From Nesterenkonia sp. (GTDB taxonomy: Bacteria > Actinomycetota > Actinomycetes > Actinomycetales > Micrococcaceae), in the NCBI RefSeq assembly GCF_029265375.1, contig NZ_JAJUJJ010000007.1:1-64000 (forward strand): a stretch of DNA of 64,000 nucleotides, read 5' to 3'. The position numbers and the translations under genes were made by a program. Below are positions 1 through 20,493 of the stretch, piece by piece (position 1 is the stretch's first letter; each line of letters begins with the position of its first letter). Below the pieces are notes generated by a model. It had not been told where the DNA came from. It was given only the letters and a program-made list of their open reading frames with translations, and searched no databases.

Positions 1-467
1 TCAGCCAGCAGATCCTCGGCCACCCTGCCGCAGGGCACATGGGGAGCGCAGACGACGACGTCGACGTCGTCATCCTCCACGTCCTGCAGTGAGCCTACGG
101 AGGCGGGATTTCCGTCCGGAACGGCGAGCACCATCTCATTGCCGGCCACATCCCGGGGCCGCCCCGCGAGCAGGCCCTCCTCAGCGGCCTTGCTCATCCA
201 GTGCTCGTCTGCGGTGATGAGCACATCACCGTCGGCACCGTGACTCAGCTGCTCGACCAGGGTGGCCGAACCGGCGGCCTGCAGCCTCACGGAGGTGCCG
301 GTCTCTGCCGTGAAGTCATCTGCGATCTCCTCCATCACCTCGTGCATAGAGGCGGCGACGAACACCGTCAACTCCTCATCGTCGGCGCGCGCGCAGGAGC
401 TGAGGAGCGCGGCAGCGATCAGCAGCCCGGCGCACAGCGCACCGGGGAAGCGAGGTGAAGACTTCAT
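1..467 (-). CDS. modA: Molybdate ABC transporter substrate-binding lipoprotein ModA (partial)
   Basis: This is the N-terminal 155 residues of a periplasmic-binding-type protein that captures molybdate outside the membrane for an ABC importer. The rest lies beyond the window edge. The protein starts with a short basic n-region, a hydrophobic stretch and a lipobox ending LLSSC, so it should be a lipoprotein. The ModA-type segments LTVFVAASM, GSATLVEQL and DGDVLITAD are visible. The ATG overlaps the moaD stop (ATGA), so it is translationally coupled to moaD and moaA on the minus strand. This links molybdate uptake to cofactor synthesis. modBC would be expected just outside the window. Confidence 0.9.
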   Translation of the reverse strand, partial: MKSSPRFPGALCAGLLIAAALLSSCARADDEELTVFVAASMHEVMEEIADDFTAETGTSVRLQAAGSATLVEQLSHGADGDVLITADEHWMSKAAEEGLLAGRPRDVAGNEMVLAVPDGNPASVGSLQDVEDDDVDVVVCAPHVPCGRVAEDLLA

Positions 468-805
468 CCGCCGGCGAAAGGGGGAAGAATATCCAGCTGG
501 TCGCCGTGACGCAGCACCGCAGTCTCCGGCCGAGCCTGACGACCATTGAGCAGATAACTGCTGCGGGCGCACACCCGGGACAGGCTGGCTACCGCGCAGG
601 CCCCGGCCTGAGGCGGCGGCAGCTGCTCGGGCAGGGCGGACAGAACCTCCCCCAACGGCTGTTCGGCACCGCTGAGCTGCATGGTCAGCTCCCCGGTGCC
701 GGCGGCCTCCTCGGCCGCGGCGAAGAAGCGTATGGTGACCGTCCCGGCAGAGGGGGCCGGCTGCGCGAACGAGGTCTGGGCCTCAGGCGTAGATGACACG
801 ATCAT
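464..805 (-). CDS. moaD: Molybdopterin synthase sulfur carrier subunit MoaD
   Basis: MoaD is the small ubiquitin-like subunit of molybdopterin synthase. Its C-terminal glycine carries the thiocarboxylate sulfur used to convert cPMP to molybdopterin, working with MoaE. The 113-residue product ends in the expected Gly-Gly (PPFAGG) after the typical HGDQLDILPP segment. The ATG at 805 overlaps the end of moaA by 4 nt. An upstream in-frame ATG at 898 would lie deep inside moaA and is rejected. No adenylating enzyme (MoeB/ThiF type) is seen nearby, so MoaD activation must be encoded elsewhere. Confidence 0.9.
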   Translation of the reverse strand: MIVSSTPEAQTSFAQPAPSAGTVTIRFFAAAEEAAGTGELTMQLSGAEQPLGEVLSALPEQLPPPQAGACAVASLSRVCARSSYLLNGRQARPETAVLRHGDQLDILPPFAGG

Positions 806-1950
806 CCTCCAATGGCGGACATAGAGCGCTGCGGACGGGTGAATCCGGGCAGTTCGAAGCCCGGCCGGTCGGTGCCGTGGGCCGCGGGCTTGACCCACAT
901 GGCTTCGGCCCAGCGGTGCGCGATGTCCGCATCGGTGGCCGATTCATCGCGCAGCAGGGCGGAGAGGTCGGTCTCCTCGGTGGAGAACAGGCAGCTCATC
1001 ACCCGGCCCTCCGCGGTCACCCGGGTGCGGGTGCACGCTGAGCAGAACGGTTCGGTCACCGAGGCGATGATCCCCACCCGGCCCAGCACGGCCTGCTCCC
1101 CGCGGCGGCGGACGTCGAAGCGTTCGGCTGGGGCGCTGCCCCGATCCTCGTCGGTAGGAGTCAGTTCGTAATGGTCGCTGAGCAGCTGACGGACCTCGGC
1201 TGCGGTGACTGTGGCCTCACGCTTCCACTGCTGATCGGCATCCAGGGGCATCTGTTCGATGAAGCGCAGCTCATAGCCGTGCTGCAGCGACCAGGCCAGC
1301 AGGTCCGCCGCACCCTGATCATTGAGTCCGCGCATCAGCACGGCGTTGATCTTCAGCGGCGTCAGACCAGCGGCGGCAGCCCCCTCCACTCCGCGCAGCA
1401 CCTTGTCCAAACTGTCCCTGCGGGTAAGTTCCGCGAAGGACTCGCGGTGAATCGTGTCCAGCGAGATGTTCACCCGATCCAGCCCAGCGGCCACCAGGGC
1501 CTCCGCCCGCCGTTCCAGACCGATGGCATTGGTCGTCAGTGCGATCGGCAGCTCCGGATGGTCGGCGCGGATACCGCCGATGATCTCTTCCAGGTCCTTG
1601 CGCACCAGCGGCTCGCCGCCGGTCAGCCGCAGCTCGCGCACCCCCAGAACCTCGACGCCGATGCGCACCAGCCGGCGGATCTCCTCAGCGGAGAGCAGCT
1701 GCTCACGGCGCAGCCAGGGCAGCCCCGCCTCGGGCATGCAGTAGGTGCAGCGAAGATTGCATTTATCAATCAGCGAGATGCGCAGATCCGTGGCGCGCCG
1801 ACCATAGCGGTCCAGCAGCCCATCCGCTGCAGGATTCAGACCACCGGCCGGCATCGCCGGTGCCTGGCGCGACGCAGCGCCCTGCTCCGCAGCCGGATGC
1901 GGACCCTGCTGATCCGGCCGACGGGGGTGGATTGCTACGCTGACTGCCAT
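802..1950 (-). CDS. moaA: GTP 3',8-cyclase MoaA (radical SAM)
   Basis: MoaA is the first enzyme of molybdenum cofactor synthesis and cyclises GTP with a radical SAM mechanism. The CNLRCTYC motif (CxxxCxxC) binds the SAM cluster. The C-terminal EPFCSACTRTR segment and a further Cys (VMSCLF) form the second FeS site. The protein ends in Gly-Gly, as the family requires. From the ATG at 1950 it is 382 aa, slightly long. A second ATG at 1854 would give 350 aa and begin near the conserved LLDRYGRRATDLRISL. A TAACAT -10-like box 8 nt before 1950 supports a leaderless start there. The start overlaps the divergent moeA start. Confidence 0.93.
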   Translation of the reverse strand: MAVSVAIHPRRPDQQGPHPAAEQGAASRQAPAMPAGGLNPAADGLLDRYGRRATDLRISLIDKCNLRCTYCMPEAGLPWLRREQLLSAEEIRRLVRIGVEVLGVRELRLTGGEPLVRKDLEEIIGGIRADHPELPIALTTNAIGLERRAEALVAAGLDRVNISLDTIHRESFAELTRRDSLDKVLRGVEGAAAAGLTPLKINAVLMRGLNDQGAADLLAWSLQHGYELRFIEQMPLDADQQWKREATVTAAEVRQLLSDHYELTPTDEDRGSAPAERFDVRRRGEQAVLGRVGIIASVTEPFCSACTRTRVTAEGRVMSCLFSTEETDLSALLRDESATDADIAHRWAEAMWVKPAAHGTDRPGFELPGFTRPQRSMSAIGG

Positions 1951-1964
1951 GGCCTCGCATGTTA
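1936..1964. promoter_or_regulatory. Overlapping divergent leaderless promoters of moaA and moeA
   Basis: The ATGs of moeA (1949, plus) and moaA (1950, minus) overlap within the same CATG. On the plus strand TACGCT (1936-1941) lies 7 nt before the moeA ATG. On the minus strand TAACAT (reverse of 1959-1964) lies 8 nt before the moaA ATG. Both fit TANNNT -10 boxes at the distance typical of leaderless actinobacterial mRNAs. The -35 regions are poor. The assignment is inferred from spacing only. Confidence 0.45.
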
Positions 1965-3289
1965 CGCGCCCCACGGCGCGGGAGCCAGTCCCCGTGCACA
2001 TCAACCGGCTGCAGACCCTGCTCAGCGAGGTTCTGGCAGATCGCGAGACTGAGACGGTGCCGGTGGGCCCTGCCCTCGCCGGACGCACGGTCGCGGCGCC
2101 GGTGACTGCCCCGATAGCGCTGCCCAGCTTCGACAACTCCCAGATGGACGGCTTCGCCGTGCGGAGACAGGACCTGACCGCGGGCGAGTGTGCGGTGCCG
2201 CTGGCCTTTGCAGTGCCTGCCGGCGCCGCGGCCCCTGCGCTGCCGCAAGGAGCCGCCGCGGCGGTGATGACAGGCTCTGAGATCCCCGCAGGCGCAGACA
2301 TGGTGGTACCGGTGGAGCGGACCAGGGACGGCTTCGCGCACCTGAACTCAGCGGGGCGTCCCGGGGCGACGGTGCAGTTCTCCGACCTCCAGCCAGGCGA
2401 TCTGACGCCCGGGCGCTTCATCCGCCCTGCCGGCTCGGATGTGCGAGCCGGTCAGCAGCTGCTCCGGCCCGGCGACCTGCTCACCCCGAGGCGGATCGGC
2501 CTGCTGGCCGGCTGCGGAATCGCCGAGATTCGTGTCTGGGAGCAGCTGCGCACCCTGGTGCTCTCCACCGGCGAAGAGATCCGGCCCGCCGGCGCCGCCC
2601 TGGGGCCGGGCCAGATCTATGACGCCAATGCGCCGATGATCGCGGCGGTCTGCGCCGGATGGGGCCACCGGACGACGACGGCTCAGGCCTCCACCGACGA
2701 CCCGGAAGACTTTCTCGCCGCCCTGGACCGACTGCTGGACGAACACCGGCCGCACCTGCTGATCACCGCCGGAGGAGTCAGCGCCGGCGCCTTTGAGGTG
2801 GTGCGCCAGGCGCTGCAGCCTCGCGGCATCAGGTTCGGGCCCGTAGCCCAGCAGCCCGGCGGGCCCCAGGGAGCCGGGCGCCTGCAGACCGCGGCGCCCC
2901 CGCCGACCTCGCTTGCAGAAACCGTGCCCTCGCACGCCCCGGATTCCGCCGTGCCGGCCGTCGTCGCCCTGCCCGGCAACCCGGTCAGCGCCGCCGTCAG
3001 CCTGCAGACCCTGCTCCGACCGGCACTGGCAGCGCTCGACCCCGCCTGCCCCGCCCCCCAACGGGTCCGCGCGCGCCTGACCGAGCCGGTGGACTCCCCG
3101 GCGGGACTCCGGCAGTACCGCCGAGTGCGTCTGGTCGACGTCGGTGAAGACGCCCACCGGGCGGAGCTGGTCGGCGGCCCAGGGTCTCATCTGCTGGGCC
3201 ACCTGGCCGCGGCCGACGCCCTGCTGGAGCTGAGCGACGACGATACCCACGTGCCGGAGGGAAGCCTCCGCCCCGCCATCGTGCTCTAA
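1949..3289 (+). CDS. moeA: Molybdopterin molybdenumtransferase MoeA
   Basis: MoeA inserts molybdate into adenylylated molybdopterin. The family signature FDNSQMDGFAV (residues 61-71) is present, with TGEEIRPAG, ITAGGVSAG and ALPGNPVSA further on. The protein is 446 aa, longer than the usual roughly 400. The extra length is mainly a low-complexity Pro/Ala/Gly insert of about 25 residues just before ALPGNPVSA, where most MoeA proteins have a tight loop. An alternative GTG at 1994 would give 431 aa. It is divergent from moaA and followed 9 nt later by moaC. Confidence 0.92.
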   Translation: MASHVTRPTAREPVPVHINRLQTLLSEVLADRETETVPVGPALAGRTVAAPVTAPIALPSFDNSQMDGFAVRRQDLTAGECAVPLAFAVPAGAAAPALPQGAAAAVMTGSEIPAGADMVVPVERTRDGFAHLNSAGRPGATVQFSDLQPGDLTPGRFIRPAGSDVRAGQQLLRPGDLLTPRRIGLLAGCGIAEIRVWEQLRTLVLSTGEEIRPAGAALGPGQIYDANAPMIAAVCAGWGHRTTTAQASTDDPEDFLAALDRLLDEHRPHLLITAGGVSAGAFEVVRQALQPRGIRFGPVAQQPGGPQGAGRLQTAAPPPTSLAETVPSHAPDSAVPAVVALPGNPVSAAVSLQTLLRPALAALDPACPAPQRVRARLTEPVDSPAGLRQYRRVRLVDVGEDAHRAELVGGPGSHLLGHLAAADALLELSDDDTHVPEGSLRPAIVL

Positions 3290-3292
3290 TCT
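3287..3292 (+). promoter_or_regulatory. Candidate -10 box of moaC
   Basis: TAATCT lies 6 nt before the moaC ATG at 3299, overlapping the moeA stop codon. The short G-run between them (GGGGGA) is a poor, very close ribosome site. moaC may therefore have its own leaderless promoter in addition to read-through from moeA. This is spacing evidence only. Confidence 0.3.
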
Positions 3293-3298
3293 GGGGGA

Positions 3299-3805
3299 AT
3301 GGCAGACGACGGCTCCCGCAAGACCTCACTGACCCACCTGAACGACGACGGCAGCGCACATATGGTTGATGTCTCCCAGAAGTCGGTGACAGTGCGCACC
3401 GCCTCAGCGCAGGCGGTGCTGATCACCACCGAGGAGGTGACCCGGCTGCTGGCCGCCGATGACCTGCCGAAGTCCGATGCGCTGTCCACCGCCCGGATCG
3501 CCGGAATCATGGCGGCGAAGAAGACCCCTGAACTGGTGCCGCTGTGCCACCCGCTGCCGATCAGCAAAGTCAGCGTGGAGGTTCAGCTCGACGCCCCAGC
3601 CCCGGGCAATGCGCTGATCACAGCCGAAGTGCGCACCACCGGGCGGACCGGAGTGGAGATGGAGGCGCTGACCGCCGCCTCGGTGGCCGCCCTGACCCTG
3701 TACGACATGATCAAAGCCGTGGACCGCAGCGCAGTCATCACCGACCAGCAGGTGCTGGCCAAATCCGGAGGAAGGAGCGGCACATGGGTGCGCCGTGCAG
3801 TCTGA
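3299..3805 (+). CDS. moaC: Cyclic pyranopterin monophosphate synthase MoaC
   Basis: MoaC converts the MoaA product, 3',8-cyclo-GTP, into cyclic pyranopterin monophosphate. The 168-residue protein has the full family layout: HLNDDGSAHMVDVS at the start, LCHPLPISKV in the middle, and MEALTAASVAALTLYDMIKAVD followed by the KSGG segment near the end. The last 22 bases overlap the start of the mogA-moaE fusion, so the two are probably translated together. Confidence 0.95.
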   Translation: MADDGSRKTSLTHLNDDGSAHMVDVSQKSVTVRTASAQAVLITTEEVTRLLAADDLPKSDALSTARIAGIMAAKKTPELVPLCHPLPISKVSVEVQLDAPAPGNALITAEVRTTGRTGVEMEALTAASVAALTLYDMIKAVDRSAVITDQQVLAKSGGRSGTWVRRAV

Positions 3806-4791
3806 CGCCGGTGATCGTGTCCACCCGCGCGGCCGCCGGCACGCGGGCCGACAAGTCCGCCCCGCTCATCGCCGATGCCGCCGAGCGGGCCGGATTCACC
3901 GTGCGCGAGCCGGTGATCGTTCCCGACGGCGAGGCCGTTGGAGACGCCCTGCGCCAGCTGCTGGAGGAGGATCCCCCCGCAGTGATCATCACCTCCGGAG
4001 GCACCGGAGTCACTGCGGACGACCGCACCCCGGAATTCACTGAGCCGCTGCTGGACATCCGGCTCCCCGGGATCACAGAGGCGCTGCGCAGCGAGGGCCG
4101 AAGCCAGACGGCGCTGGCCGCGCTCAGCCGCGGCGTGGCCGGAGTGGCAGGCTCCACGGTGGTCGTCAACCTCCCGGGATCGCCCACAGCCGTCACCCAG
4201 GGGATGGCCGTGCTGGCTGAGATGCTGCCGCATCTGTGTGATCAGCTCGCAGGGGACCGCGGCCACCACACGGCTGACATCCGGCAGCGGTCCGGGGCAT
4301 CGGAGCGGACGCAGGAATCGGCAGCGCTTGAGTCCGCGCAGCGGACCGCATCGACCGAACCCGACCAGGAGTCCGGCACGGTGGTGCACACCGGCATCTG
4401 TGACCGCCCACTGGACCCGGCTCGGGCGGAGCAGGAGACCGCGACGGCGCACGAGGGCGCCGTCGTCGTGTTCTGCGGAGTGGTGCGCAACCATGATCAG
4501 GGCCGGCAGGTGGAGCGCCTTGACTACACCGCACATCCCAGCGCCGCCGCGGTATTGGAGCAGACGGCGGCTGAGGTGGCCGCAGCCCATCCGCACGTCC
4601 GGCTCTGGGCCGAACATCGCATCGGGCAGCTGACTCTGGGCGATCACGCGCTGGTGGCGGCCGCGGCCTCGGCACACCGGGCCGAAGCCTTCGCTGCCTG
4701 CGCCGAGCTGGTCGAGCAGATCAAGCAGCGCGTGCCCATCTGGAAGGAGCAGTTCTTCACCGACGGCACACGGGAGTGGGTCGGCCTGTAG
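3784..4791 (+). CDS. MogA/MoaB - MoaE fusion protein
   Basis: One 335-residue chain joins two Moco enzymes. Residues 8-155 are a MogA/MoaB domain (molybdopterin adenylyltransferase) with the ITSGGTGVTADDRTPE motif at 69-84 and the LPGSPTAV loop near 130. Residues about 157-198 are a polar linker rich in Gln, Glu and Ser. Residues about 200-335 are MoaE, the large subunit of molybdopterin synthase, with FCGVVRNHD and the active-site segment KQRVPIWKEQ (Lys313 and Lys321). The ATG at 3784 follows GGAAGGAG. Fusions of this kind occur in some actinobacteria. MoaD, the MoaE partner, is encoded separately on the opposite strand. Confidence 0.9.
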   Translation: MGAPCSLTPVIVSTRAAAGTRADKSAPLIADAAERAGFTVREPVIVPDGEAVGDALRQLLEEDPPAVIITSGGTGVTADDRTPEFTEPLLDIRLPGITEALRSEGRSQTALAALSRGVAGVAGSTVVVNLPGSPTAVTQGMAVLAEMLPHLCDQLAGDRGHHTADIRQRSGASERTQESAALESAQRTASTEPDQESGTVVHTGICDRPLDPARAEQETATAHEGAVVVFCGVVRNHDQGRQVERLDYTAHPSAAAVLEQTAAEVAAAHPHVRLWAEHRIGQLTLGDHALVAAAASAHRAEAFAACAELVEQIKQRVPIWKEQFFTDGTREWVGL

Positions 4792-4802
4792 ACCGCAGCG
4801 GT

Positions 4803-5405
4803 TCAGCCTCCGGCAGCGTCAGCCCCGGGCAGCGGCAGCGAGTCGATGTCATCACCGCCGGGGAGATCCGTGCAGTCCACATGCGCGACCCCATGGCGCC
4901 GCAGATACTCCCGCGCCCCGATATCGGCACGCAGCTGGCCGGACAGCTCCGCCCAATGATCCCGGCCGATGAACACCGGATGGCCCGGTCTCCCGCCGTA
5001 GCTGGCCCGGCGCAGGTCAGCAGGCGAGAGCGGCTGGGCCAGCACCCGGGCCACCGCCTCCGGGACCATGCGCGGAAGGTCGACCAGGGTGATCAGCGCC
5101 CCGCACGGCTGTGCGCCCGATGCGGCGGCCCGGCGCTGGGCGGCCTGCAGCCCGGCCCCCACCGATGCCGAGATCCCCTCCTCCCAGTCTGGGACGACCA
5201 CCGGCTGCGCACCGTCGGGAACCAGGTCAGCGGCCTGCTCGGCCTGGGCGCCGAGCATCACCAGCACCTCGTCAGCGCCGGCTGCGCTGAGCAGATCGGC
5301 AGCGATCCTCACCCAGGGAGTTCCTGCCTCATCGCGCAGCAGAGCCTTCGGCCGGCCCATGCGCCGCCCAGCGCCTGCGGCCAGCACCAGCCCCACAAAA
5401 CTCAC
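4803..5405 (-). CDS. mocA: MocA-like molybdopterin cytidylyltransferase / NTP transferase
   Basis: This 200-residue protein has the nucleotidyltransferase fold of the MobA/MocA group. The nucleotide-binding start is LAAGAGRRMGRPKALL (8-23), followed by TLVDLPRMVPE and RPGHPVFIGRDHW. MocA makes the molybdopterin cytosine dinucleotide used by bacterial xanthine-oxidase-family enzymes. One such enzyme is encoded next door, so MocA is preferred over MobA, but sequence alone does not settle CTP versus GTP. It ends convergent with the mogA-moaE gene, 11 nt away. Its ATG overlaps the stop of padR (ATGA-like overlap), so the two share a transcript. Confidence 0.8.
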   Translation of the reverse strand: MSFVGLVLAAGAGRRMGRPKALLRDEAGTPWVRIAADLLSAAGADEVLVMLGAQAEQAADLVPDGAQPVVVPDWEEGISASVGAGLQAAQRRAAASGAQPCGALITLVDLPRMVPEAVARVLAQPLSPADLRRASYGGRPGHPVFIGRDHWAELSGQLRADIGAREYLRRHGVAHVDCTDLPGGDDIDSLPLPGADAAGG

Positions 5406-5959
5406 TCAGCAGCCCCCCTGGGCTGATCGGGCTGCTCCATCCGGGCCGCCAGGTTCTGCCAGAATTCCAGGGCGGCACGTTCCATCGCTATGCCCAGCTC
5501 CAGGGGGATCAGTCGGGAGGCCAAGGAGTCCACGGAGCCGAAGCGCTCCTGCATGGATTCATAGGTGGTCAGGCGTTCCTGGTGCTGCCGCACCTGCTCG
5601 CGCGCCAGAGAGAGGATGTCCTCATCGGAGGCGAGTTCGGAGAAGAACAGCTTCAGCTCGGCGACGTCGCGCACCTGCATCGGCTCCGTCTCCGGTACGG
5701 CCAACCACTCCTGCAGGGCGCGCCGGCCCTCCTCGGTCAGCGAGAAGGTCTGCCGGCGGCGGCCGCCGTTCTCCGTGGTCACATCCAGCAGCCCCGCTTC
5801 GGCCAGGCGGCGTGGCTCGGAGTAGAGCTGGGCGTGGGGAAAAGGCCAGAAGTACCCGACCGAATGACCCACCGCCCGTTTGAGGTCATAGGACGTCGAG
5901 GGTCCGCGCAGGCCCAGCAGCCCCAGCACCACATAGGACGTCGTCGTCAGTCGAACCAT
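5402..5959 (-). CDS. PadR-family transcriptional regulator
   Basis: The 185-residue protein has an N-terminal winged helix typical of PadR (TTSYVVLGLLGLRGPSTSYDL, then GYFWPFPHAQLYSEPRRL and the wing GRRRQTFSLTEEGR). A C-terminal helical dimerisation domain (Vir-like) follows. PadR proteins commonly repress genes for phenolic-acid metabolism and respond to aromatic ligands. It is divergent from the molybdenum hydroxylase operon and co-transcribed with mocA, so it is the obvious candidate controller of both. That role is inferred from position. Confidence 0.85.
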   Translation of the reverse strand: MVRLTTTSYVVLGLLGLRGPSTSYDLKRAVGHSVGYFWPFPHAQLYSEPRRLAEAGLLDVTTENGGRRRQTFSLTEEGRRALQEWLAVPETEPMQVRDVAELKLFFSELASDEDILSLAREQVRQHQERLTTYESMQERFGSVDSLASRLIPLELGIAMERAALEFWQNLAARMEQPDQPRGAAE

Positions 5960-6022
5960 AACTGCTCATTCTCTCACCTCGTTGCCGCAGGCGGTTCAGG
6001 CAGTTGCGCGGCACCGCGACGC

Positions 6023-6056
6023 TATGTATGTTAGGTCACATAGTATGAAACATAAC
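6023..6056. promoter_or_regulatory. AT-rich repeat-bearing operator candidate between padR and the hydroxylase operon
   Basis: In a GC-rich setting this stretch is unusually AT-rich. It carries related half-sites: TATGTATGTT at 6023, TATGTT at 6027-6032 and its inverse AACATA at 6049-6054, plus ATAGTATG between them. PadR operators are usually ATGT/ACAT dyads with an 8-10 nt gap, so this is a plausible PadR site lying over both promoters. It is imperfect and unproven. Confidence 0.4.
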
Positions 6057-6105
6057 GTCCGTATCAGAGTGTGCGGGCGGTGGAGCATCTCGCAAGGGAG
6101 CGGAA

Positions 6106-8550
6106 GTGGCGCAGAGCGGAAGCGGCAACTACGTGGGTCAGGCCCTGGCGCGCGTGGAGGACCCGGCGCTGGTGACCGGCCGGGGGAGGTTCCTGGACGA
6201 CCTGGACCCGGTCCCGGGCACTCTGGTCGCCGCAGTGGTGCGCAGCCCGCATCCGCACGCCCGCATCCGCGAAGTCGACCTGGAGCGAGCACGGCAGCAC
6301 CCCGGCGTGGCCGCCGTCATCGGCCCCGAGGAGGTCCTCGAAACCCTCCGGCCCTTCCCGCTGTCGCTGAAGACCCCGATGCCGTACTACCCCACCGGCA
6401 CCGATAAGGTCCGCTTCGTCGGCGAACCGGTGGCGGTGGTGGTGGCTACTGACCGCTACACCGCAGAGGACGCGGCCGAGCTGGTGCACATCGACTATGA
6501 GCTGCTGCCTGCGGTGGTCGACACTGCCGAGGCCGAGCGTGAGGATGCCCCGCTGCTGCACGACACTGCTGAGAGCAATGTGGCAAGCGACCGGCTCTTC
6601 ACCTTCGGCGACGTCGAGGCGGCCTTCGACGGCGCAGCCCACGTGGTCAGCGGCGAATACAGCTTCCCGCGCTACTCCTCCACGCCCATGGAGTGCTACT
6701 CGGTGATCTCCGAGTGGCGGGAGGAGGCGGACGGGCCGCAGGTCACCGCCTGGTCGAACTTCCACGGACCCTTCTCCATGGTTCCGGTGCTGGCCGGGGC
6801 CCTGGGCATCGGGACCGCGCAGCTGCGGCTGATCATTCCCCAGGACAATGGGGGCAGCTTCGGCATCAAGGCCGGGATCTACCCCTATGTGGCGCTGATG
6901 GCGGTCGCCAGCAAGTACGCCGGTCGCCCGGTGCGCTGGACCGAGGACCGGATCGAGCACCTGCTCGCCTCCTCGGCCGGCTCAGACCGGGTGATGCGCT
7001 TCTCCGCCGCGGTCAGTGAGTCGGGCATGGTCGAAGCCCTCGACGTCGACTTCCGGGAGAACGTCGGCGCCTATCTGCGTCCCCCGGAGCCGGCCACCCT
7101 CTACCGCTGCTTCGGCAATATCACCGGCGCCTACCGGATTCAGAACGTGCGGCTGCGCTCGCGGGCAGTAGTCACCAATAAGGCGCCCACTGGACTCAAC
7201 CGCGGCTTCGGCGGTCAGCAGCTCTACTTCGGCCTGGAGCGGCTGATGGACAAGATCGCCCGCACCCTCGGGGAAGACCCCGTCGAGCTGCGTCGCCGCA
7301 ATCTGGTGCCCTCCTCCGCCTTCCCCTACGCCACCCCCACCGGCGGCATCTACGACTCCGGGGACTACGAGCAGGCGGTGGCCAAGGTGGTGGAGTCCAG
7401 CCAGTATCAGCAGCTGCGCGCCCGGCAGGAGGAGGCCCGCAGCCGCGGCGAGCTCGTCGGCACCGGCATCGCCCTGGCCGTAGAGCCCTCAGCGACCAAT
7501 ATCGGCTACGTCGGCCTGGCCACTCCGGCTGAGGAGCGGCCCCCGGGCAGGGATAAGTCCGGCTCCACTGAGCATGTGCGGGTCTCGGTGGACCCGTTCG
7601 GAACCGTCTCGGTGCTGCTGGGCACTGTCCCGCAGGGGCAGGGTCATGCCACGGTGGCCCGCCAGGTGGTGGCCGACCGGCTGGGCCTGCCGCTGGCGAG
7701 CGTGGTGCCCAAAGTGGATATGGACACCGACAGCACGCCGTGGACGGTGACCTCCGGCAGCTACTCCTCCCGGTTCTCCCCGCTGCTGACCTCCGCCCTG
7801 GTGGAGGCCGCCGACCGGGTGGCTGAGACCATCAAAGTGGCCGCCGGAGTGCTGCTGGAAGCATCGCCGCAGGATCTCGAGCTCGCCGAGGGCACGGTCC
7901 GGGTGGCTGAGCATCCCCAGCGTTCGGTCGCATTTCGGCACGCGGCCGGTCTGGTCCACTGGGACCCCGGCTCCCTGCCGGACGGCATCGACGCGCAGCT
8001 CTACGCGGAGGCCGCCTTCACCCCTCCGCAGTCCACCGCAGCCTCCCGCACCGATCAGATCAACTCGTCCCTGTGCTACGGCTTCGTGGCCGAGGTGGTC
8101 CAGGTGCGCATCGACCCAGACACCTATGAGATCTCCATCGAGCAGGTCAATGCGGTCCACGACGCCGGCACCGTGCTGAACCCGCTGCTGATCGAAGGGC
8201 AGGTCCACGGCGCCATGGTGCACGGACTCGGCGGAGCCCTCTATGAGGAGATGGCCTACGACCAGAGCGGCCAGCCGACCTCCACATTCATGGACTACCT
8301 GGTGCCGACCTCCGCAGAGGCCGACTTCCCGCTCACCGGAGACCGGGTGGTCACCCCCTCACCGGTGACCAAGCTCGGCGCCAAGGGCTCCGGGGAAGGC
8401 AGCAGTATGAGCTTCCCCGCCGCGGTGGCCAGCGCCGTGGAGGACGCTCTCTCGGCCCATCGCATTGAGATCACCTCGCTTCCGCTGCACGGCAATGTCA
8501 TCCATGACCTGCTCAGCGGCTCCGAAGACCAGAAGACTGCCCAACACTGA
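6106..8550 (+). CDS. Xanthine-oxidase-family molybdenum hydroxylase, large subunit (CoxL/HcrA-like)
   Basis: This 814-residue catalytic subunit binds the molybdopterin cofactor. It opens with RVEDPALVTGRGRFLDD (residues 16-32), has the molybdenum-site segment NRGFGGQQ (365-372) and ends with KGSGEGSSM, in which Glu764 sits where the family base is. The loop LYRCFGNITGAYR differs from the VAYRCSFR loop of true form I CO dehydrogenase, so CO oxidation is unlikely. GTG at 6106 follows AAGGGAG. The next genes encode an enoyl-CoA hydratase-like protein and the FAD and FeS subunits, then a CoA ligase. A CoA-thioester substrate, as in 4-hydroxybenzoyl-CoA reductase, is a reasonable inference. Confidence 0.88.
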   Translation: MAQSGSGNYVGQALARVEDPALVTGRGRFLDDLDPVPGTLVAAVVRSPHPHARIREVDLERARQHPGVAAVIGPEEVLETLRPFPLSLKTPMPYYPTGTDKVRFVGEPVAVVVATDRYTAEDAAELVHIDYELLPAVVDTAEAEREDAPLLHDTAESNVASDRLFTFGDVEAAFDGAAHVVSGEYSFPRYSSTPMECYSVISEWREEADGPQVTAWSNFHGPFSMVPVLAGALGIGTAQLRLIIPQDNGGSFGIKAGIYPYVALMAVASKYAGRPVRWTEDRIEHLLASSAGSDRVMRFSAAVSESGMVEALDVDFRENVGAYLRPPEPATLYRCFGNITGAYRIQNVRLRSRAVVTNKAPTGLNRGFGGQQLYFGLERLMDKIARTLGEDPVELRRRNLVPSSAFPYATPTGGIYDSGDYEQAVAKVVESSQYQQLRARQEEARSRGELVGTGIALAVEPSATNIGYVGLATPAEERPPGRDKSGSTEHVRVSVDPFGTVSVLLGTVPQGQGHATVARQVVADRLGLPLASVVPKVDMDTDSTPWTVTSGSYSSRFSPLLTSALVEAADRVAETIKVAAGVLLEASPQDLELAEGTVRVAEHPQRSVAFRHAAGLVHWDPGSLPDGIDAQLYAEAAFTPPQSTAASRTDQINSSLCYGFVAEVVQVRIDPDTYEISIEQVNAVHDAGTVLNPLLIEGQVHGAMVHGLGGALYEEMAYDQSGQPTSTFMDYLVPTSAEADFPLTGDRVVTPSPVTKLGAKGSGEGSSMSFPAAVASAVEDALSAHRIEITSLPLHGNVIHDLLSGSEDQKTAQH

Positions 8551-8562
8551 AGGAGAAGATAT

Positions 8563-9342: not shown

Positions 9343-9343
9343 C

Positions 9344-10243
9344 GTGAAAGCTGCGCCCTTCTCCTACGTGCGTCCCACCAGGCTCGACGACGTCGTCGCC
9401 GAGCTGGAGCGCGCTGAGAGCACCGGAGGCGGCAAAGTGATCGCCGGTGGGCAGTCCCTGCTGCCGGTCCTGGCCATGCGTCTGGGTCGCCCTAAGACCC
9501 TGGTGGACATCACCCGAGTGAGGGAGCTGGCCGAACTGCAGGACGACGTCGGCACCGTGCGCATCGGCGCAGCCGTGCGGCAGCGAAGAGTTGAGCGCGA
9601 GCTGGCCCGCCGGGTCCCGCTGGTGGGGCGCGCCCTGCCGTGGGTGGGCCACCGGGAGATCCGCAGCCGCGGGACCGTCTGCGGCTCGCTGGCGCATGCC
9701 GACCCCTCCGCTGAGCTGCCCGCGGTGGCGCTGTGCCTGGACGCGACGCTGACCGTGGTCGGGCCCGAAGGACGGCGACGCGTCCCGGCGGCAGAGTTCT
9801 TCACCGGCGCGATGTCCACTGTGCTTGCCCCCGCGGAGCTGGTCACCTCGGTCACCGTTCCGACCCCCAGGGCGGGAGAGGGCTTCGGCTTCGAGGAGCT
9901 GGCCCGTCGCCACGGCGATTTCGCCCTGGCCGGCGCCGCCGCGCGTGTGCGCCGCGACGGTGATGCAGTCACCGAGGCGGCGCTGGTGGGATTCGGGGTG
10001 GCCGACCGGGCCCAGCACCGTGACCTCACCGTCCCTATGGCGCAGGCGGTCAGCCAGCACGGGGCCGATGAGAAGGCCCTCACCACCACCCTGGCCGAGG
10101 CCGTGGACCAGATCGCCGCGGAGGTGGTCACCGCCTCGGACGCCCACGCCTCACAGCAGTACCGCCGCCGCCTCATGCGGGTGCTGGGCACCCGAGCGCT
10201 GGTGCGGGCCTGGACCGACAGCAGGAGGAGAACCCACGCATGA
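9344..10243 (+). CDS. Molybdenum hydroxylase FAD-binding medium subunit (CoxM/HcrB-like)
   Basis: This 299-residue subunit passes electrons from the FeS clusters through FAD to the acceptor. The FAD-binding segments AGGQSLLPVLAMRLG near residue 30 and GTVCGSLAHADPSAELP near residue 110 are clear, followed by the CO_deh_flav_C-type C-terminal domain. No insertion with four extra cysteines is seen, so it lacks the 4Fe-4S cluster found in HcrB of anaerobic 4-hydroxybenzoyl-CoA reductase. That favours an oxidase or dehydrogenase direction. GTG at 9344 starts 1 nt after the preceding stop. It overlaps the next gene by ATGA. Confidence 0.88.
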   Translation: MKAAPFSYVRPTRLDDVVAELERAESTGGGKVIAGGQSLLPVLAMRLGRPKTLVDITRVRELAELQDDVGTVRIGAAVRQRRVERELARRVPLVGRALPWVGHREIRSRGTVCGSLAHADPSAELPAVALCLDATLTVVGPEGRRRVPAAEFFTGAMSTVLAPAELVTSVTVPTPRAGEGFGFEELARRHGDFALAGAAARVRRDGDAVTEAALVGFGVADRAQHRDLTVPMAQAVSQHGADEKALTTTLAEAVDQIAAEVVTASDAHASQQYRRRLMRVLGTRALVRAWTDSRRRTHA

Positions 10244-11499
10244 GCCCCACAGCTGCGCCCCTGAACGCCCTGAAGAGCCGACTGAGCAGCTGGCGCCAGG
10301 ACCCAGGCGCAGCCGAAGACCGGCAGCAGGTGCTGCGCGTCGAGGCCGAGGAGACTCTCCGCGTCTCCTTCACCGTCAACGGCCGACCCGCCGAGGTGGA
10401 CGTCGCCCCCCGGGTCACGCTCTCCGATGCGCTGCGCGACCACTTGGGCCTGACCGGCACGCATATCGGCTGCGAGCACGGGGTGTGCGGGATGTGCACA
10501 GTCATCGTCGACGGCGATGCCGCCCGCGCCTGCCTGCTGCTGGCCTGCCAGCTCGAAGGCGCCGAGATCATGACCGTCGAGGGACTGGGCAAGCCCGACG
10601 ACCTGCATCCGCTGCAGGAGTCCTTCAGTCGCCACCACGCTCTGCAGTGCGGCTTCTGCACCCCGGGAATGCTGATGAGCGCCTACGACCTGCTTGACCA
10701 CGAGCCAGGCGTCGCCCAGGACGAACTGCCGGAGAAGATGTCCGGGGTACTGTGCCGCTGCACCGGCTACCGGCACATCATGGACGCCGTCTCCGACGTC
10801 GCCCAGCAGAATCCCGAGGGCGTGCCGGCCCCGCGCAACTGCGGAACCGGCCAGCTGCTGCCGCGCAGCAGCACCGGCGGACCCGGTTCCAGCGCAGAGG
10901 ACGAGCTGCAGAGCCGGGGTCCGGCCGAGATCACCCTGCCCAGCTCCCAGCCGACCGTCACCGTCAGCGTGGAGGAGCACGTCCAGGCCACCCCGGAGGA
11001 GATCTGGGAGGTGCTGCAGGACACCGACCGGGTGGCCCGCTGCCTGCCCGGGGCCGAGCTGGTCGAAGACTTCGGCAATGACCGCTATCTGGGCCGGATA
11101 CGCGTCGCACTGGGACCGGTGAAGCTCTCCTTCGTCGGCGATATCCACGTCACCGAACGCGATGAGCAGAACCGCTCCATCCGCGCAGTCGCCCAGGCCG
11201 AGGACGCCGCCGGAGGCAGTGTGCAGGCCGGGGTCGCCTTGGCGGCCAAGCCGCACGAGGGCGGCAGCCTGCTCTCGGCCGACGCCGAACTGTTCATGGT
11301 CGGCAAGATCGCTCAGATGGGACGCTCACTGGCCGGCGATGTCAGCGCTGATATGTTCGCCCAGTTCACCCAAGCCCTCGATGCCACCGCCCGCGGCGAG
11401 GAGCCGACCCAGGCCCAGGCACCGAGCGCCGTGGCGATGTTCACCCGCCTGATGTCCCAGCGCGCACAATCGCTCGTGGACCGCCTGAGAAGGAGATGA
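10240..11499 (+). CDS. 2Fe-2S small subunit fused to a CoxG-like domain
   Basis: Two functions are joined in 419 residues. After a 40-residue extension, residues 41-185 are the small FeS subunit with Cys78, Cys83, Cys86 and Cys98 for the plant-type cluster and Cys137, Cys140, Cys172 and Cys174 for the second cluster. A Gly/Ser-rich linker follows. Residues about 240-390 are a CoxG/SRPBCC domain (EEIWEVLQDTDRVARCLPGAELVE). In CO dehydrogenase operons CoxG is a separate protein thought to anchor the enzyme to the membrane. The fusion would tether this enzyme to the membrane or quinone pool directly. Confidence 0.88.
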   Translation: MSPTAAPLNALKSRLSSWRQDPGAAEDRQQVLRVEAEETLRVSFTVNGRPAEVDVAPRVTLSDALRDHLGLTGTHIGCEHGVCGMCTVIVDGDAARACLLLACQLEGAEIMTVEGLGKPDDLHPLQESFSRHHALQCGFCTPGMLMSAYDLLDHEPGVAQDELPEKMSGVLCRCTGYRHIMDAVSDVAQQNPEGVPAPRNCGTGQLLPRSSTGGPGSSAEDELQSRGPAEITLPSSQPTVTVSVEEHVQATPEEIWEVLQDTDRVARCLPGAELVEDFGNDRYLGRIRVALGPVKLSFVGDIHVTERDEQNRSIRAVAQAEDAAGGSVQAGVALAAKPHEGGSLLSADAELFMVGKIAQMGRSLAGDVSADMFAQFTQALDATARGEEPTQAQAPSAVAMFTRLMSQRAQSLVDRLRRR

Positions 11500-11500
11500 C

Positions 11501-13057
11501 ATGCAGTTAGGCCGCACCTTGGAATGGACGGCAGCCCGCTTCCCGGAGCGGACCGGCTTCGCCGGAGAGCGCCGTATGACCTACCGCCAGTGGGACGAGC
11601 GCACCAATCAGATCGCCCAGGCGCTCGCCTCCGCCGGGGTCACCCGCGGCGACCGCATCGCCACCTTCCTGGCGAACACGGAGGTGATGGCCTCCACCCA
11701 CCTGGCGCTGCAGAAGCTGGGCGTGATGTCCACCCCGCTGAACATCCGCCTCTCCGCCGCCGAGCTGGCCTACTGCCTCGACGACGCCGAACCCGCGGTG
11801 GTGATCACTGACGATTACGCCGCTGAGGTGGCCGGCGAGGCGCTGAGCAGCAGCAGCCACCGGCCGCGGGTGCTGCACGCCGGTTCCCGCCCAGTTCAGG
11901 GGGCCGAAGACTTTGAGGAGACCGTCGCGGCGGCCGATACCTCCGCCCCCGGGGTCGAGGTGGCCGAATCCGATCCCAGCGTGATGCTCTACACCTCCGG
12001 CACCACGGGCCGGCCCAAAGGGGTGCCGCGCACCCAGCGCAATGAGTACGCCGCCTCCACCGCCCATGTGATGCAGTGCCAGTACGCCTATGGGGAGTCC
12101 ACCTTGGGCGCGATGCCGATGTATCACACCATGGGCCTGCGCTCACTGCTGTCCATGGTCGTCATCGGGGGCAAATTCGTGGAGCTTCCGGCCTATGACG
12201 CTCGCCGCGCCATCGAGCTGATTGCCGCGGAGCAGATCAGCGCGCTCTACCTGGTGCCCACCGCCTACTGGGCGCTGGCTCAGACCGGTCAGCTCAGCCG
12301 CATCGCCCCCTCCGTGCGGAAACTGGCCTTCGCCGGGGCGCCCATGACCTCTGCACTCTGCCAGCGACTCACCCGGGAGCTGGACCCGACGGTCTTCGTC
12401 AACCACTACGGATCCAGTGAGGTCTACACCTTCTCCATCGCCGAGGATGCCACAGCCAAGCCGGGCTGCGCCGGGCGGGCCGGACTGCATTCCCGCCTGA
12501 TGGTGGTCGACCCGCAGACCCAGAGCGGCCACCAGCAGCTGCCGGTGGGGGAAGTGGGCGAGATCGTCGCGAGCCTGGACTCGGATGAGTCCTTCCAGGG
12601 CTACTGGAACCGTCCCGACGCCGATACCAAGTCCCTGCGCGAGGGCTGGTACCACACCGGCGACCTGGGACACCTCGACGAGGACGGCGACCTCTGGGTC
12701 GACGGCCGGGTCGACGACATGATCATCACCGGCGGCGAGAACGTGCACCCCGTGGAGGTCGAAGATGTGCTCTCCCACCACCCGGAGATCGCCGAGGTGA
12801 CCGTCGTCGGCCTGCCGGACGAGAAATGGGGGCAGGCCGTCACCGCCTTCATCGTTCCCCAGGACGAGACCAAGGACCCCGCCGAGCTGACCGAGGCCAT
12901 CGCCTCCTGGATCCGCACCGAGGCGCAGCTCTCGCCCTATAAGCGGCCCAAGCAGATCCAGATCGTCACTGCCATCCCCAAGTCCCCCGTCGGCAAGATT
13001 CTGCGCCGCAAGCTGGTGGCCGGGGAATACGAGACCCGCGAGACCGCACCCCAGTGA
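11501..13057 (+). CDS. AMP-dependent acyl/aryl-CoA ligase
   Basis: This 518-residue ANL-superfamily enzyme activates a carboxylic acid with ATP and CoA. It has the phosphate-binding loop YTSGTTGRPKG (164-174), YGSSE, YHTGDLGHLDEDGD, the hinge GRVDDMIITGGENVHP and the catalytic-lysine end KSPVGKILRR. Within the family it resembles 4-chlorobenzoate/benzoate- and fatty-acid-CoA ligases. The neighbours (BenE permease, hydroxylase) favour an aromatic acid, but the specificity is not known. It starts 1 nt after the coxS-coxG fusion stop, behind AGAAGGAG, so it is part of the same operon. Confidence 0.85.
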   Translation: MQLGRTLEWTAARFPERTGFAGERRMTYRQWDERTNQIAQALASAGVTRGDRIATFLANTEVMASTHLALQKLGVMSTPLNIRLSAAELAYCLDDAEPAVVITDDYAAEVAGEALSSSSHRPRVLHAGSRPVQGAEDFEETVAAADTSAPGVEVAESDPSVMLYTSGTTGRPKGVPRTQRNEYAASTAHVMQCQYAYGESTLGAMPMYHTMGLRSLLSMVVIGGKFVELPAYDARRAIELIAAEQISALYLVPTAYWALAQTGQLSRIAPSVRKLAFAGAPMTSALCQRLTRELDPTVFVNHYGSSEVYTFSIAEDATAKPGCAGRAGLHSRLMVVDPQTQSGHQQLPVGEVGEIVASLDSDESFQGYWNRPDADTKSLREGWYHTGDLGHLDEDGDLWVDGRVDDMIITGGENVHPVEVEDVLSHHPEIAEVTVVGLPDEKWGQAVTAFIVPQDETKDPAELTEAIASWIRTEAQLSPYKRPKQIQIVTAIPKSPVGKILRRKLVAGEYETRETAPQ

Positions 13058-13115
13058 CCCCAATCCGATACCGAAACCCAGGATGAGTCCTCCCTGACCG
13101 AAGAAGGTGGCCCCC

Positions 13116-14408
13116 ATGACAGTCCCCGACACTCCCCGCAGCGCTGAGACAGCAGACACCACGCACCTGGTGGAAAGGGGGCCAGGGTTCCGCGCCGGTG
13201 TGCGCGACCTCTGGGGAAACTTGAACCCGGCGACCATCGGCGCCGGTCTGGTGGCCGCCATCTTCGGCTGCACCGGACCTGCGCTGATCGTGATCAACGG
13301 GGCCCACGAGGCTGGACTGTCCCCCGGACTGACCGCCTCCTGGATCTTCGGCATCTACGTCTTCGGCGGGCTGATCTCCATCGTGCTCGCGCTGCACTAC
13401 AAGCAGCCGATCACCGGAGCCTTCTCCATCCCCGGAGCCGCCCTGGTGACTGCAGCGCTGCCGAACTACAGCTTCCCGGAGATGGTCGGCGCTTTCCTGC
13501 TGGCGGGGCTTCTGGTGCTGCTGGTCGGGGTCACCGGCCTGGTGCGCAGAGTGGTCCAATGGATCCCGTTCCCCATCGTGATGGCGATGATCGCCGGGGC
13601 GCTGATCCGGTTCGGCATCGAGATCGTCAACTCCGCGGCCGCCGCGCCCGTGGTGGCAGGCGCGGCGCTGCTGGGTTTCGTGCTGCTCAGCCGCTTCCTC
13701 CCGGCGGTCCCCGGGGTGGTGGGCGCCTTGGTGCTGGGACTGATCGCCGCCGGTCTGATGGGAAGCTTCGGCACCCTGGAGGGCGGCTTGGGGCTGACCG
13801 CGCCGCAGCTGATCGCGCCCTCCTTCGACCTGGGCGCGGTGCTGGCGGTGGCGATTCCGCTGGCGCTGCTGGTCATCGGTGCCGAGAATGCTCAGGCCAT
13901 GGGCGTGCTGATGGCCGAGCGGTATAAGCCCCCGTTCAACGTCATGACCATCATCAGCGGCTTCGGTGGCCTGCTGGCGCCGCTGTTCGGCGGACACAAT
14001 GCCAATATCGCCGGTCCGATGACGGCGATCTGCTCCTCCGACCAGGCTGGAGAGGACCGCGCCGGCCGCTATGCCGCCACAGTGGTCAACGGTGTCCTCT
14101 TCGGGCTCTTTGGAGTGTTCGCGGGTGTGACGGTGGCGTTGGTGACGGTCATGCCGGCCGAGCTGACCGCCACCGTGGCAGGCCTGGCGATGATCGGGGT
14201 GCTGGTCCGGTCCTTCCGCGCGAGCTTCCCCGACGGCGGCCTGCAGTTCGGCCCGTTCTTCGCGCTGGTGATCGCCATGAGCGGAGTGACCCTGTTCAAT
14301 ATCTCTGCGCCGTTCTGGGCGCTGGTCGGCGGCGTGCTGGCATCGTTGCTGCTGGAGCCCCGGCACTTTTGGGAACCCCAGGCCGCAGCGCAGAACAAGA
14401 CTGCCTGA
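13116..14408 (+). CDS. BenE-family benzoate/H+ symporter-type permease
   Basis: This 430-residue integral membrane protein has about twelve hydrophobic segments, a hydrophilic N-terminus and the family feature GAFSIPGAALV. BenE proteins take up benzoate and related acids. The ATG at 13116 is chosen because AGAAGG lies 6-8 nt upstream. A GTG at 13107 is too close to it. It follows the ligase by 58 nt and precedes xdhC, so uptake, activation and oxidation sit in one operon. The exact solute is unknown. Confidence 0.85.
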   Translation: MTVPDTPRSAETADTTHLVERGPGFRAGVRDLWGNLNPATIGAGLVAAIFGCTGPALIVINGAHEAGLSPGLTASWIFGIYVFGGLISIVLALHYKQPITGAFSIPGAALVTAALPNYSFPEMVGAFLLAGLLVLLVGVTGLVRRVVQWIPFPIVMAMIAGALIRFGIEIVNSAAAAPVVAGAALLGFVLLSRFLPAVPGVVGALVLGLIAAGLMGSFGTLEGGLGLTAPQLIAPSFDLGAVLAVAIPLALLVIGAENAQAMGVLMAERYKPPFNVMTIISGFGGLLAPLFGGHNANIAGPMTAICSSDQAGEDRAGRYAATVVNGVLFGLFGVFAGVTVALVTVMPAELTATVAGLAMIGVLVRSFRASFPDGGLQFGPFFALVIAMSGVTLFNISAPFWALVGGVLASLLLEPRHFWEPQAAAQNKTA

Positions 14409-14433
14409 GCTGAGTCGGTGAAGGAGACAACTG

Positions 14434-15624
14434 ATGCGTGAAGTAGCCAGTCAGCTGCGTCAGCAGTGGGAGGCCGACCAGCCGGTGGCCCTGGCGACGG
14501 TGGTCTCCACCTTCCGCTCGGCGCCGCGGGAGCCCGGAGCGGCGATGCTCATCACCGGCCGGGGCGAGGTCCTGGGATCAGTCTCGGGAGGCTGCGTGGA
14601 GAGCGCGGTCTACACCAGCGCACAGGAGGTACTGGCCACCGGCGCCCCCCGGCTGGAGCGCTACGGGATCACCGATGGGGACGCCTTCGCCGTGGGGCTG
14701 ACCTGCGGAGGCACACTCGAGGTGTTCATCGAGCGCATCACCGCCGCAGAGTTCCCCGAACTCGGCGACATTCTCGACGACGTTCAGGCCGGCCGGCCGG
14801 TGGGGGTGGCCACCGTAGTGGACCACCCCGACCACGCCCAGGTGGGTCGCCGCACCGCAGTGCGTCTGCCGGAGCCTGCCTCCCCGGGGTGCAGCCCCGG
14901 CGATGACCACCGCCCGGGGGCCGAGCCCGTGCTCGGCTGGGCCGACCGCCGTGCCGAGGCGGCCGCAGCGGAGGATATGCGCGCCATGCTGCGCACCGGG
15001 CGGAGCGGCATCCTCGAGTACGGGCCTGCAGGCCAGCGGCAGGGGGCCGGTCAGCGGATCTTCGTCTCCAGCTTTGCCGCACCCGACCGGATGCTGATCT
15101 TCGGGGCCATCGATTTTGCCGCCTCTGTGGCGCAGATCGGATCCTTTCTGGGCTACCGCGTCACCGTCTGCGATGCCCGGCCCGTGTTCGCCACCGCTCA
15201 GCGGTTCCCCGCCGCCGACGAGGTGGTGGTGCAGTGGCCCGACGACTACCTGCGCCAGGAGAAGCAGGCCGGGCGGGTCAACGAGCGCACCGTCATATGT
15301 GTGCTCACCCACGAACCCACCGTCGATGTGCCGGTCCTCCAGGAGGCGCTGAACGGACCGGCTGTGGGATACATCGGTGTGATGGGCTCCCGGCGCACCC
15401 ACCGGGACAGGTTGCAGCGGCTGCGTGAGGCCGGTCTGAGTGAGGAGCAGCTGGCCCGACTCGCCAGCCCCATCGGACTGGACCTGGGCGGCCGCACCCC
15501 TGCGGAGACGGCGCTGAGCATCGGGGCTGAGATCGTCGCCCACCGCCATGGGGGCAGCGGCCTGCCGCTGAGCCGGCGCAGCGGACCCATCCATAGGGCC
15601 CCCGTCGGTCTCCCGGCAGGGTGA
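14434..15624 (+). CDS. XdhC/CoxI-family molybdenum hydroxylase maturation factor
   Basis: This 396-residue protein has the XdhC/CoxI layout. The N-terminal domain (LATVVSTFRSAPREPGAAM, VSGGCVES, GLTCGGTLEVF) is followed by a Rossmann domain (LIFGAIDFAASVAQIGSFLGY and GVMGSRRTHRDR). XdhC binds the mature cofactor, helps add the terminal sulfur and inserts it into the large subunit. It is the last gene of the hydroxylase operon, 25 nt after the permease and preceded by GAAGGAGA. Its presence supports the neighbouring enzyme being a genuine sulfurated Mo hydroxylase. Confidence 0.88.
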   Translation: MREVASQLRQQWEADQPVALATVVSTFRSAPREPGAAMLITGRGEVLGSVSGGCVESAVYTSAQEVLATGAPRLERYGITDGDAFAVGLTCGGTLEVFIERITAAEFPELGDILDDVQAGRPVGVATVVDHPDHAQVGRRTAVRLPEPASPGCSPGDDHRPGAEPVLGWADRRAEAAAAEDMRAMLRTGRSGILEYGPAGQRQGAGQRIFVSSFAAPDRMLIFGAIDFAASVAQIGSFLGYRVTVCDARPVFATAQRFPAADEVVVQWPDDYLRQEKQAGRVNERTVICVLTHEPTVDVPVLQEALNGPAVGYIGVMGSRRTHRDRLQRLREAGLSEEQLARLASPIGLDLGGRTPAETALSIGAEIVAHRHGGSGLPLSRRSGPIHRAPVGLPAG

Positions 15625-15697
15625 GGGTCTGTGGAGCAGATGTCCACGTTTCCTGTTTAGGCTTATGGCCTGACACGACGACGAGAGGACATACTGC

Positions 15698-16345: not shown

Positions 16346-16351
16346 GACGCC

Positions 16352-16402
16352 GATGCGGCCGGCGGCAGCGGGTCTTGTGCGCCCCGCACCGCCGACCGCA
16401 TC
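16352..16402. terminator. Hairpin between convergent genes
   Basis: GATGCGG (16352-16358) pairs with CCGCATC (16396-16402), and an inner GGCGG/CCGCC pair adds to the stem. It lies between the convergent membrane-protein gene and malate synthase, so it may end transcripts from both sides. There is no T-run. Confidence 0.45.
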
Positions 16403-16423
16403 ACAGCCGGGCGACTGGGTGTG

Positions 16424-18028: not shown

Positions 18029-18062
18029 GGCAGGCTCCTCACGGTGGGGGTTGCTGCTTCCT

Positions 18063-18077
18063 TTCTATGCCATAGAA
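18063..18077. promoter_or_regulatory. Palindromic IclR operator candidate between aceB and iclR
   Basis: TTCTATGCCATAGAA is a perfect 15-bp dyad (7-bp arms around one C). It overlaps TAGAAT (18073-18078), a -10 box lying 7 nt before the iclR GTG, and lies about 35 nt before the aceB start on the other strand. The position suits repression of both genes by the adjacent regulator. The palindrome is seen directly; the binding protein is inferred. Confidence 0.6.
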
Positions 18078-18085
18078 TCCGCAGT

Positions 18086-20490: not shown

Positions 20491-20493
20491 GCG

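Follow-up and report, generated by a model that had tools for sequence, protein, structure and literature searches.

A predicted furoate-degradation operon of the HmfABCDE type in Nesterenkonia sp. and its arrangement in Actinomycetota

The Nesterenkonia locus and the described hmf systems

The genes hmfABCDE have been described for Cupriavidus basilensis HMF14 (as cited in PMC6678421) and, together with benE and psfD, for Pseudomonas pseudoalcaligenes CECT 5344 (PMC6678421). A set consisting of HmfH, HmfD, HmfABC, HmfFG and HmfE has been described for B. phenoliruptrix (PMC4101177) and a further hmf cluster for Pseudomonas umsongensis GO16 (PMC12064950). The stretch considered here, referred to as the window, is 64,000 nucleotides of Nesterenkonia sp. 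DNA and makes up the first 64,000 bases of contig C17 in a genome of 2.72 Mb. Sequence comparison makes it very probable that positions 6106-14408 represent an actinobacterial furoate-degradation operon of the HmfABCDE type with an added BenE permease. The Hmf route leads from 2-furoate through 2-furoyl-coenzyme A (2-furoyl-CoA) and 5-hydroxy-2-furoyl-CoA to 2-oxoglutarate. The chemistry is most likely of this known, ordinary kind; the actinobacterial arrangement of the genes and their spread are of modest interest. None of the titles and abstract openings retrieved in literature searches describes furoyl-CoA genes in Actinomycetota.

Genes were called from Pfam and NCBIfam profile matches to the window proteins, and those of the operon all lie on the forward strand. 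The first encodes an HmfA-like large molybdenum subunit of the xanthine-oxidase family (6106-8550; PF01315, PF02738 and PF20256), predicted from its tree position and motifs to belong to a 2-furoyl-CoA dehydrogenase; it was the sole PF02738 protein found in the source genome. It is followed by an HmfE-like crotonase (8563-9342; PF00378 and tree), predicted to act as a 2-oxoglutaroyl-CoA hydrolase, and by the flavin adenine dinucleotide (FAD) subunit of the predicted dehydrogenase (about 9344-10243; PF00941 and PF03450), whose start is approximate, with a GTG at 9344. The predicted iron-sulphur (FeS) subunit, with two [2Fe-2S] clusters, is fused to a CoxG domain in one reading frame (10240-11499; PF00111, PF01799 and PF06240). 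Downstream lie an HmfD-like AMP-forming ligase (11501-13057; PF00501, PF13193 and tree), the putative 2-furoyl-CoA synthetase, and a BenE-family permease (13107-14408; PF03594) that barely passes the TIGR00843 cut-off (206.4 bits against 203.4) and is proposed to be the furoate importer. Profile matches and synteny place the three xanthine-oxidase-family subunits, the acyl-CoA ligase and the crotonase in one operon. A PadR-family regulator is encoded divergently on the reverse strand (5402-5959; PF03551), and an XdhC-type maturation factor follows BenE on the forward strand (14434-15624; PF02625 and PF13478).

By analogy with the named Hmf pathway, from which substrate, reactions and regulation were inferred, BenE would import 2-furoate and the ligase would convert it to 2-furoyl-CoA. 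The dehydrogenase would then hydroxylate ring carbon C5 of the thioester, with electrons passing from molybdenum through the two [2Fe-2S] clusters to FAD and on to an acceptor; XdhC, and perhaps the CoxG domain, may aid maturation of the enzyme. The 5-hydroxy-2-furoyl-CoA so formed would tautomerise to an enol-lactone, 5-oxo-2-furoyl-CoA, which the crotonase HmfE is proposed to take to 2-oxoglutarate and hence to the citrate cycle. PadR probably acts as a local regulator. A preliminary description of this stretch had suggested aerobic import, CoA activation and hydroxylation or oxidation of an aromatic or heteroaromatic acid by a route that could not be matched to a known pathway. Aerobic import, CoA activation and molybdenum-dependent hydroxylation of a heteroaromatic acid are supported, as a prediction; the unmatched route is not, the genes matching HmfABCDE plus BenE and the large subunit grouping with hmf-like loci. 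A pathway set down as unknown becomes assignable, which may be of use for furfural clean-up and for finding the furan-ring-opening enzyme.

The hmf systems of CECT 5344 and HMF14, as described, have a three-subunit molybdenum dehydrogenase, a ligase and a crotonase in common with the window, and CECT 5344 likewise possesses BenE and an XdhC-like maturation gene, the window XdhC being the counterpart of PsfD. The window differs from both in carrying PadR rather than an AraC-type regulator, in the position of its crotonase gene, between those for the large and FAD subunits, and in the fusion of CoxG to its FeS subunit. Plasmid pHTA426 of Geobacillus kaustophilus (L002) encodes XdhC, a MocA-like protein, the large subunit, CoxG, FAD subunit, FeS subunit, ligase and crotonase, with UbiD upstream. 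Both this locus and that of Priestia megaterium pNCT2_4 (L003) resemble the window in encoding the three subunits, crotonase, XdhC and a MocA-like protein, to which Geobacillus adds the ligase and Priestia BenE. The Geobacillus locus is unlike the window in its separate CoxG gene, its order of large subunit, CoxG, FAD, FeS, ligase and crotonase, and its HmfF-like UbiD. In the annotation of the Priestia stretch, which includes no ligase gene, the large subunit (8989-11408) stops short of the C-terminal Glu motif.

Among Proteobacteria, Cupriavidus pinatubonensis (L004) possesses the large, FAD and FeS subunits, ligase, crotonase, a major facilitator superfamily (MFS) carrier and XdhC; there CoxG is joined to the large subunit, in the window to the FeS subunit. 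The locus of Paraburkholderia aromaticivorans (L099) comprises LysR, UbiD, UbiX, the large, FAD and FeS subunits, ligase, crotonase, a GMC oxidoreductase and an MFS carrier, and that of Paracoccus yeei (L100) the three subunits, ligase, crotonase, BenE and XdhC.

Gene order and spread among related loci

Gene order was compared across the best 80 of at least 526 confirmed loci, comprising 66 from Actinomycetota, nine from Pseudomonadota and five from Bacillota. Five of the actinobacterial loci lacked a large-subunit match above the coverage limit and seven lacked a ligase match. The order large subunit, crotonase, FAD subunit, FeS subunit was observed in all 59 actinobacterial loci having the four genes, a recurrence which argues that the arrangement is not due to chance. 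Fusion of the FeS subunit to CoxG was found in 62 of 64 actinobacterial loci, the exceptions (L062 and L080) both being short contigs. The ligase gene preceded the large-subunit gene in 49 of the 57 loci with matches to both and followed the crotonase gene in eight, the position that it has in the Nesterenkonia cremea locus and in the window. A PadR homologue lay next to the operon in 56 of the 66 loci from Actinomycetota, including 47 of the 48 that were at least 19 kb long. It is this layout, with PadR, a crotonase gene inside the dehydrogenase genes and a CoxG-FeS fusion, that is less described.

Hmf-type gene sets with this layout of their own are scattered in Actinomycetota, among them Nesterenkonia, Georgenia, Nocardioides, Saccharopolyspora and Pseudonocardia. 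With the source genome counted, the crotonase was detected at an E value of 1e-70 in two of 30 genomes of the genus, and the large subunit at 1e-180 in five of 396 genomes sampled from the phylum. Several individual loci depart from the common form. In a long stretch from Pseudonocardia sp. CNS-004 (L066) the large-subunit match falls in two pieces at about 7500-9993, reflecting a gene break or a sequencing error. In a distant actinobacterial family, two loci (L111 and L112) run large subunit, ligase, crotonase, FAD and FeS, a separate CoxG homologue lying farther on; the UbiD present in one of the two shares 71% identity with the Geobacillus protein. Halalkalibacterium ligniniphilum (L090) carries two near-identical hmfE-like genes, at 1933 and 9968.

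BenE was present in 14 and an MFS carrier in 22 of the 80 loci, and the two never occurred together (hypergeometric P 0.007, a value uncorrected for relatedness). This mutual exclusion fits the published guess that BenE is a furoate carrier. Of the 48 longer loci from Actinomycetota, 24 had neither. Aldehyde dehydrogenase genes occurred in 18 of the 80 loci.

A dyad upstream of the large-subunit gene in the window, CTATGT-N10-ACATAG (about 6020-6045), was considered as a conserved PadR operator and rejected, TATGT-N10-ACATA occurring in none of 55 other stretches. An earlier dyad pattern gave a single match, in L026, and none in the window. The dyad ACCG-N5-CGGT was present in 16 of 56 stretches, some of which include coding sequence, against a maximum of 10 in 20 shuffles; no conclusion was drawn from it.

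A decarboxylase of the HmfF type near some relatives ties the family to furans. UbiD, scored at 45% identity or more and at least 60% coverage in the stretch retrieved around each locus (about 10 kb away at most), was found in 10 of the 80 loci, seven of them actinobacterial and including Georgenia (L013), whose large subunit is 85% identical to that of the window. A UbiX-type flavoprotein gene (PF02441) was found in eight loci, six actinobacterial, and four of the eight were also UbiD loci. Among proteins of solved structure, 6h6v came closest to the UbiD of Geobacillus and of Sinomonas (E 4e-167 and 4e-138), the next other protein scoring 7e-64 and 2e-57; PMC10176493 gives 6H6V as HmfF of Pelotomaculum thermopropionicum. 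UbiD was not found in the source genome, so that the organism probably uses 2-furoate, and perhaps furfural, rather than furandicarboxylate.

Relatedness and alternative readings

Identities to the window proteins were determined over 99 loci at a coverage of at least 60%. Large subunits of hmf-like rows were at least 42% identical to that of the window, as against 34-37% for CO dehydrogenases and other paralogues; for the crotonase the corresponding values were at least 43% and at most 37%. Against Geobacillus and C. pinatubonensis respectively, identity was 49 and 46% for the large subunit, 51 and 50% for the crotonase, 46% in both cases for the ligase, 51 and 57% for the FeS subunit and 37 and 41% for the FAD subunit. 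The crotonase of N. cremea was 93% identical to that of the window.

Trees were built from the window protein plus 42 (large subunit), 40 (ligase) or 46 (crotonase) rows, drawn from 89, 82 and 96 matching rows; all three were quick searches without bootstrap, with branch supports from the Shimodaira-Hasegawa-like approximate likelihood ratio test (SH-aLRT). In the large-subunit tree, 18 actinobacterial rows (including the window), six from Bacillota and 11 from Proteobacteria each lay on one side of a branch (SH-aLRT 100, 97 and 100%), and the three-phylum hmf-like clade was separated from eight outgroup rows at 99%. The branch to the actinobacterial clade is long, at 0.7 changes per column. 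All warnings of long branches meeting fell within the outgroup; long rows comprised outgroup rows and the ingroup rows L086 and L083, and seven rows had an unusual letter make-up. The crotonase tree split 40 hmf-like rows, again drawn from all three phyla, from seven paralogues at 95%, the Bacillota rows being together at only 79%. In the ligase tree the actinobacterial rows were united at 100% and formed two sister groups, corresponding to a ligase gene placed before the large-subunit gene or after the FeS gene; this tree agrees with the other two, though less cleanly. Judged by these trees, all three proteins fall with those of hmf-like loci and apart from paralogues, save that one Geobacillus paralogue lies among the Bacillota ligases. 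In the large-subunit tree, which compares the window with CO dehydrogenase and other paralogues, the grouping with loci that are hmf-like by gene content comes close to what the preliminary description named as refuting it, membership of a characterised clade with known substrate.

Several observations weigh against assignment to the furoate pathway. The reference loci of the trees are hmf-like by gene content, the strains shown to grow on furoate (C. basilensis HMF14, CECT 5344 and GO16) being absent. A long paralogue row joins at the base of the crotonase tree and drew a long-branch warning, and in the ligase tree the outgroup does not form one side of a branch, a second Geobacillus ligase falling among the Bacillota ligases. 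A counter-example outside the 59, the short actinobacterial contig L080, lacks the CoxG fusion and runs FAD, FeS, ligase, crotonase. XdhC was found in just three of the 66 actinobacterial loci, and that of the window is 28-31% identical to those of the Bacillota and Proteobacteria loci; UbiD lies nearby in just seven of the 66. The core proteins of the window are just 35-57% identical to those of three Bacillota and Proteobacteria loci, and the substrate could therefore be a different heteroaromatic acid with a five-membered ring, for instance thiophene-2-carboxylate or pyrrole-2-carboxylate, handled by the actinobacterial branch through the same logic of CoA activation, hydroxylation and ring opening. 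The long actinobacterial branch and the missing UbiD of the source genome are consistent with this, but it is considered unlikely in view of the HmfF-like UbiD near Georgenia and six more actinobacterial loci, the UbiX-type genes and active-site motifs close to those of the proteobacterial loci.

The remaining alternatives are far less probable. Aerobic CO dehydrogenase, xanthine dehydrogenase and 4-hydroxybenzoyl-CoA reductase share the xanthine-oxidase-family fold and subunit make-up, and among solved structures a CoxL (8uem, E 5e-124) comes closest to the large subunit, which favours such an enzyme with unrelated CoA genes beside it. Family scores and gene context nevertheless make this most improbable. 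The large subunit fell far short of the NCBIfam cut-offs for aerobic CO dehydrogenase (479 of 950 bits), 4-hydroxybenzoyl-CoA reductase (TIGR03194, 379 of 995) and XdhA (322 of 916 and 319 of 780). Its molybdenum-site loop is PTGLNRGFGG, a motif which, like DNGGSFGIK, is common to the window and the aligned hmf-like loci with small changes; four rows above the NF040766 cut-off have the CO dehydrogenase loop TPYRGAGRP, and the large-subunit tree sets the window apart from these CO dehydrogenase rows. With just two cysteines, the FAD subunit cannot hold the 4Fe-4S insert known from 4-hydroxybenzoyl-CoA reductase, and a crotonase gene sits among the dehydrogenase genes in 59 of 59 loci. On both loop and insert the preliminary description is borne out. 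It had also proposed a self-contained molybdenum module, that is, molybdenum cofactor (Moco) genes private to an enzyme of a new aromatic-acid pathway. The two sets of genes are adjacent in the source genome and the mocA-like gene runs into the end of padR, but MoaC occurs in 28 of the 30 genomes compared within the genus, as opposed to two of 30 for the hmf crotonase (own genome counted in both), and N. cremea carries MoaC on contig C2, apart from its crotonase on C6. Together with a further Moco enzyme in the source genome, this indicates that the Moco genes very likely serve other enzymes too; as gene set and trees match hmf, a private module is scarcely credible.

Within the furoate pathway, the enzyme opening the lactone merits separate consideration, this step being left without an assigned gene in the 2019 paper (PMC6678421). 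With core genes masked, neighbouring genes were clustered and families present in at least four of the 80 loci were considered. Seventeen flanking families recurred: transporters, aldehyde and acyl-CoA dehydrogenases, regulators, UbiD, the UbiX type, XdhC, dehydrogenase subunits (one a paralogue of the large subunit), other oxidoreductases and one DUF1932 family. No hydrolase was identified among these 17, which makes the crotonase the leading candidate. HmfE may tentatively be viewed as a two-step crotonase, opening the enol-lactone of 5-hydroxy-2-furoyl-CoA and cleaving the 2-oxoglutaroyl thioester, as no other recurrent gene of these operons seems capable of either step. The two glutamates with a role in crotonases are conserved in 88 of 88 rows (the window gene being counted twice), which supports this possibility; if true, it would supply the ring-opening step. 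A separate putative 5-hydroxy-2-furoyl-CoA hydrolase listed for the GO16 cluster (PMC12064950) speaks against it.

Cofactor genes and neighbouring features

The general Moco genes (3-4791) are neighbours outside the operon. On the reverse strand, modA (3-572) is truncated where the contig begins, its first base being window position 1, and is followed by moaD (464-898) and moaA (about 802-1854); moeA (1949-3289), moaC (3299-3805) and a single reading frame shared by mogA and moaE (about 3784-4791) are on the forward strand. The MocA/MobA-like nucleotidyltransferase gene overlapping padR at its end (4803-5405, reverse strand; PF12804, E 1.2e-26) encodes a possible cofactor finisher for the dehydrogenase. 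Every gene named in the preliminary description was recovered by the profile searches; its span of 464-15624 holds for most of them, with modA lying mostly outside.

Contig C42 of the source genome encodes a formate-dehydrogenase-like molybdopterin oxidoreductase (about 9500-17400; L110 and L113) with one in-frame TGA and with SelA and selenocysteine tRNA (tRNA-Sec) genes nearby, and is very likely to specify a selenocysteine enzyme. The in-frame TGA was seen in several more genomes of the genus. Directly beyond the operon, the window carries genes for malate synthase (reverse strand) and an IclR-type regulator (forward strand) at 16424-18865, and at 19462-22610 consecutive genes for ornithine cyclodeaminase-like, dimethylargininase-like and DAO-type FAD oxidoreductase proteins.

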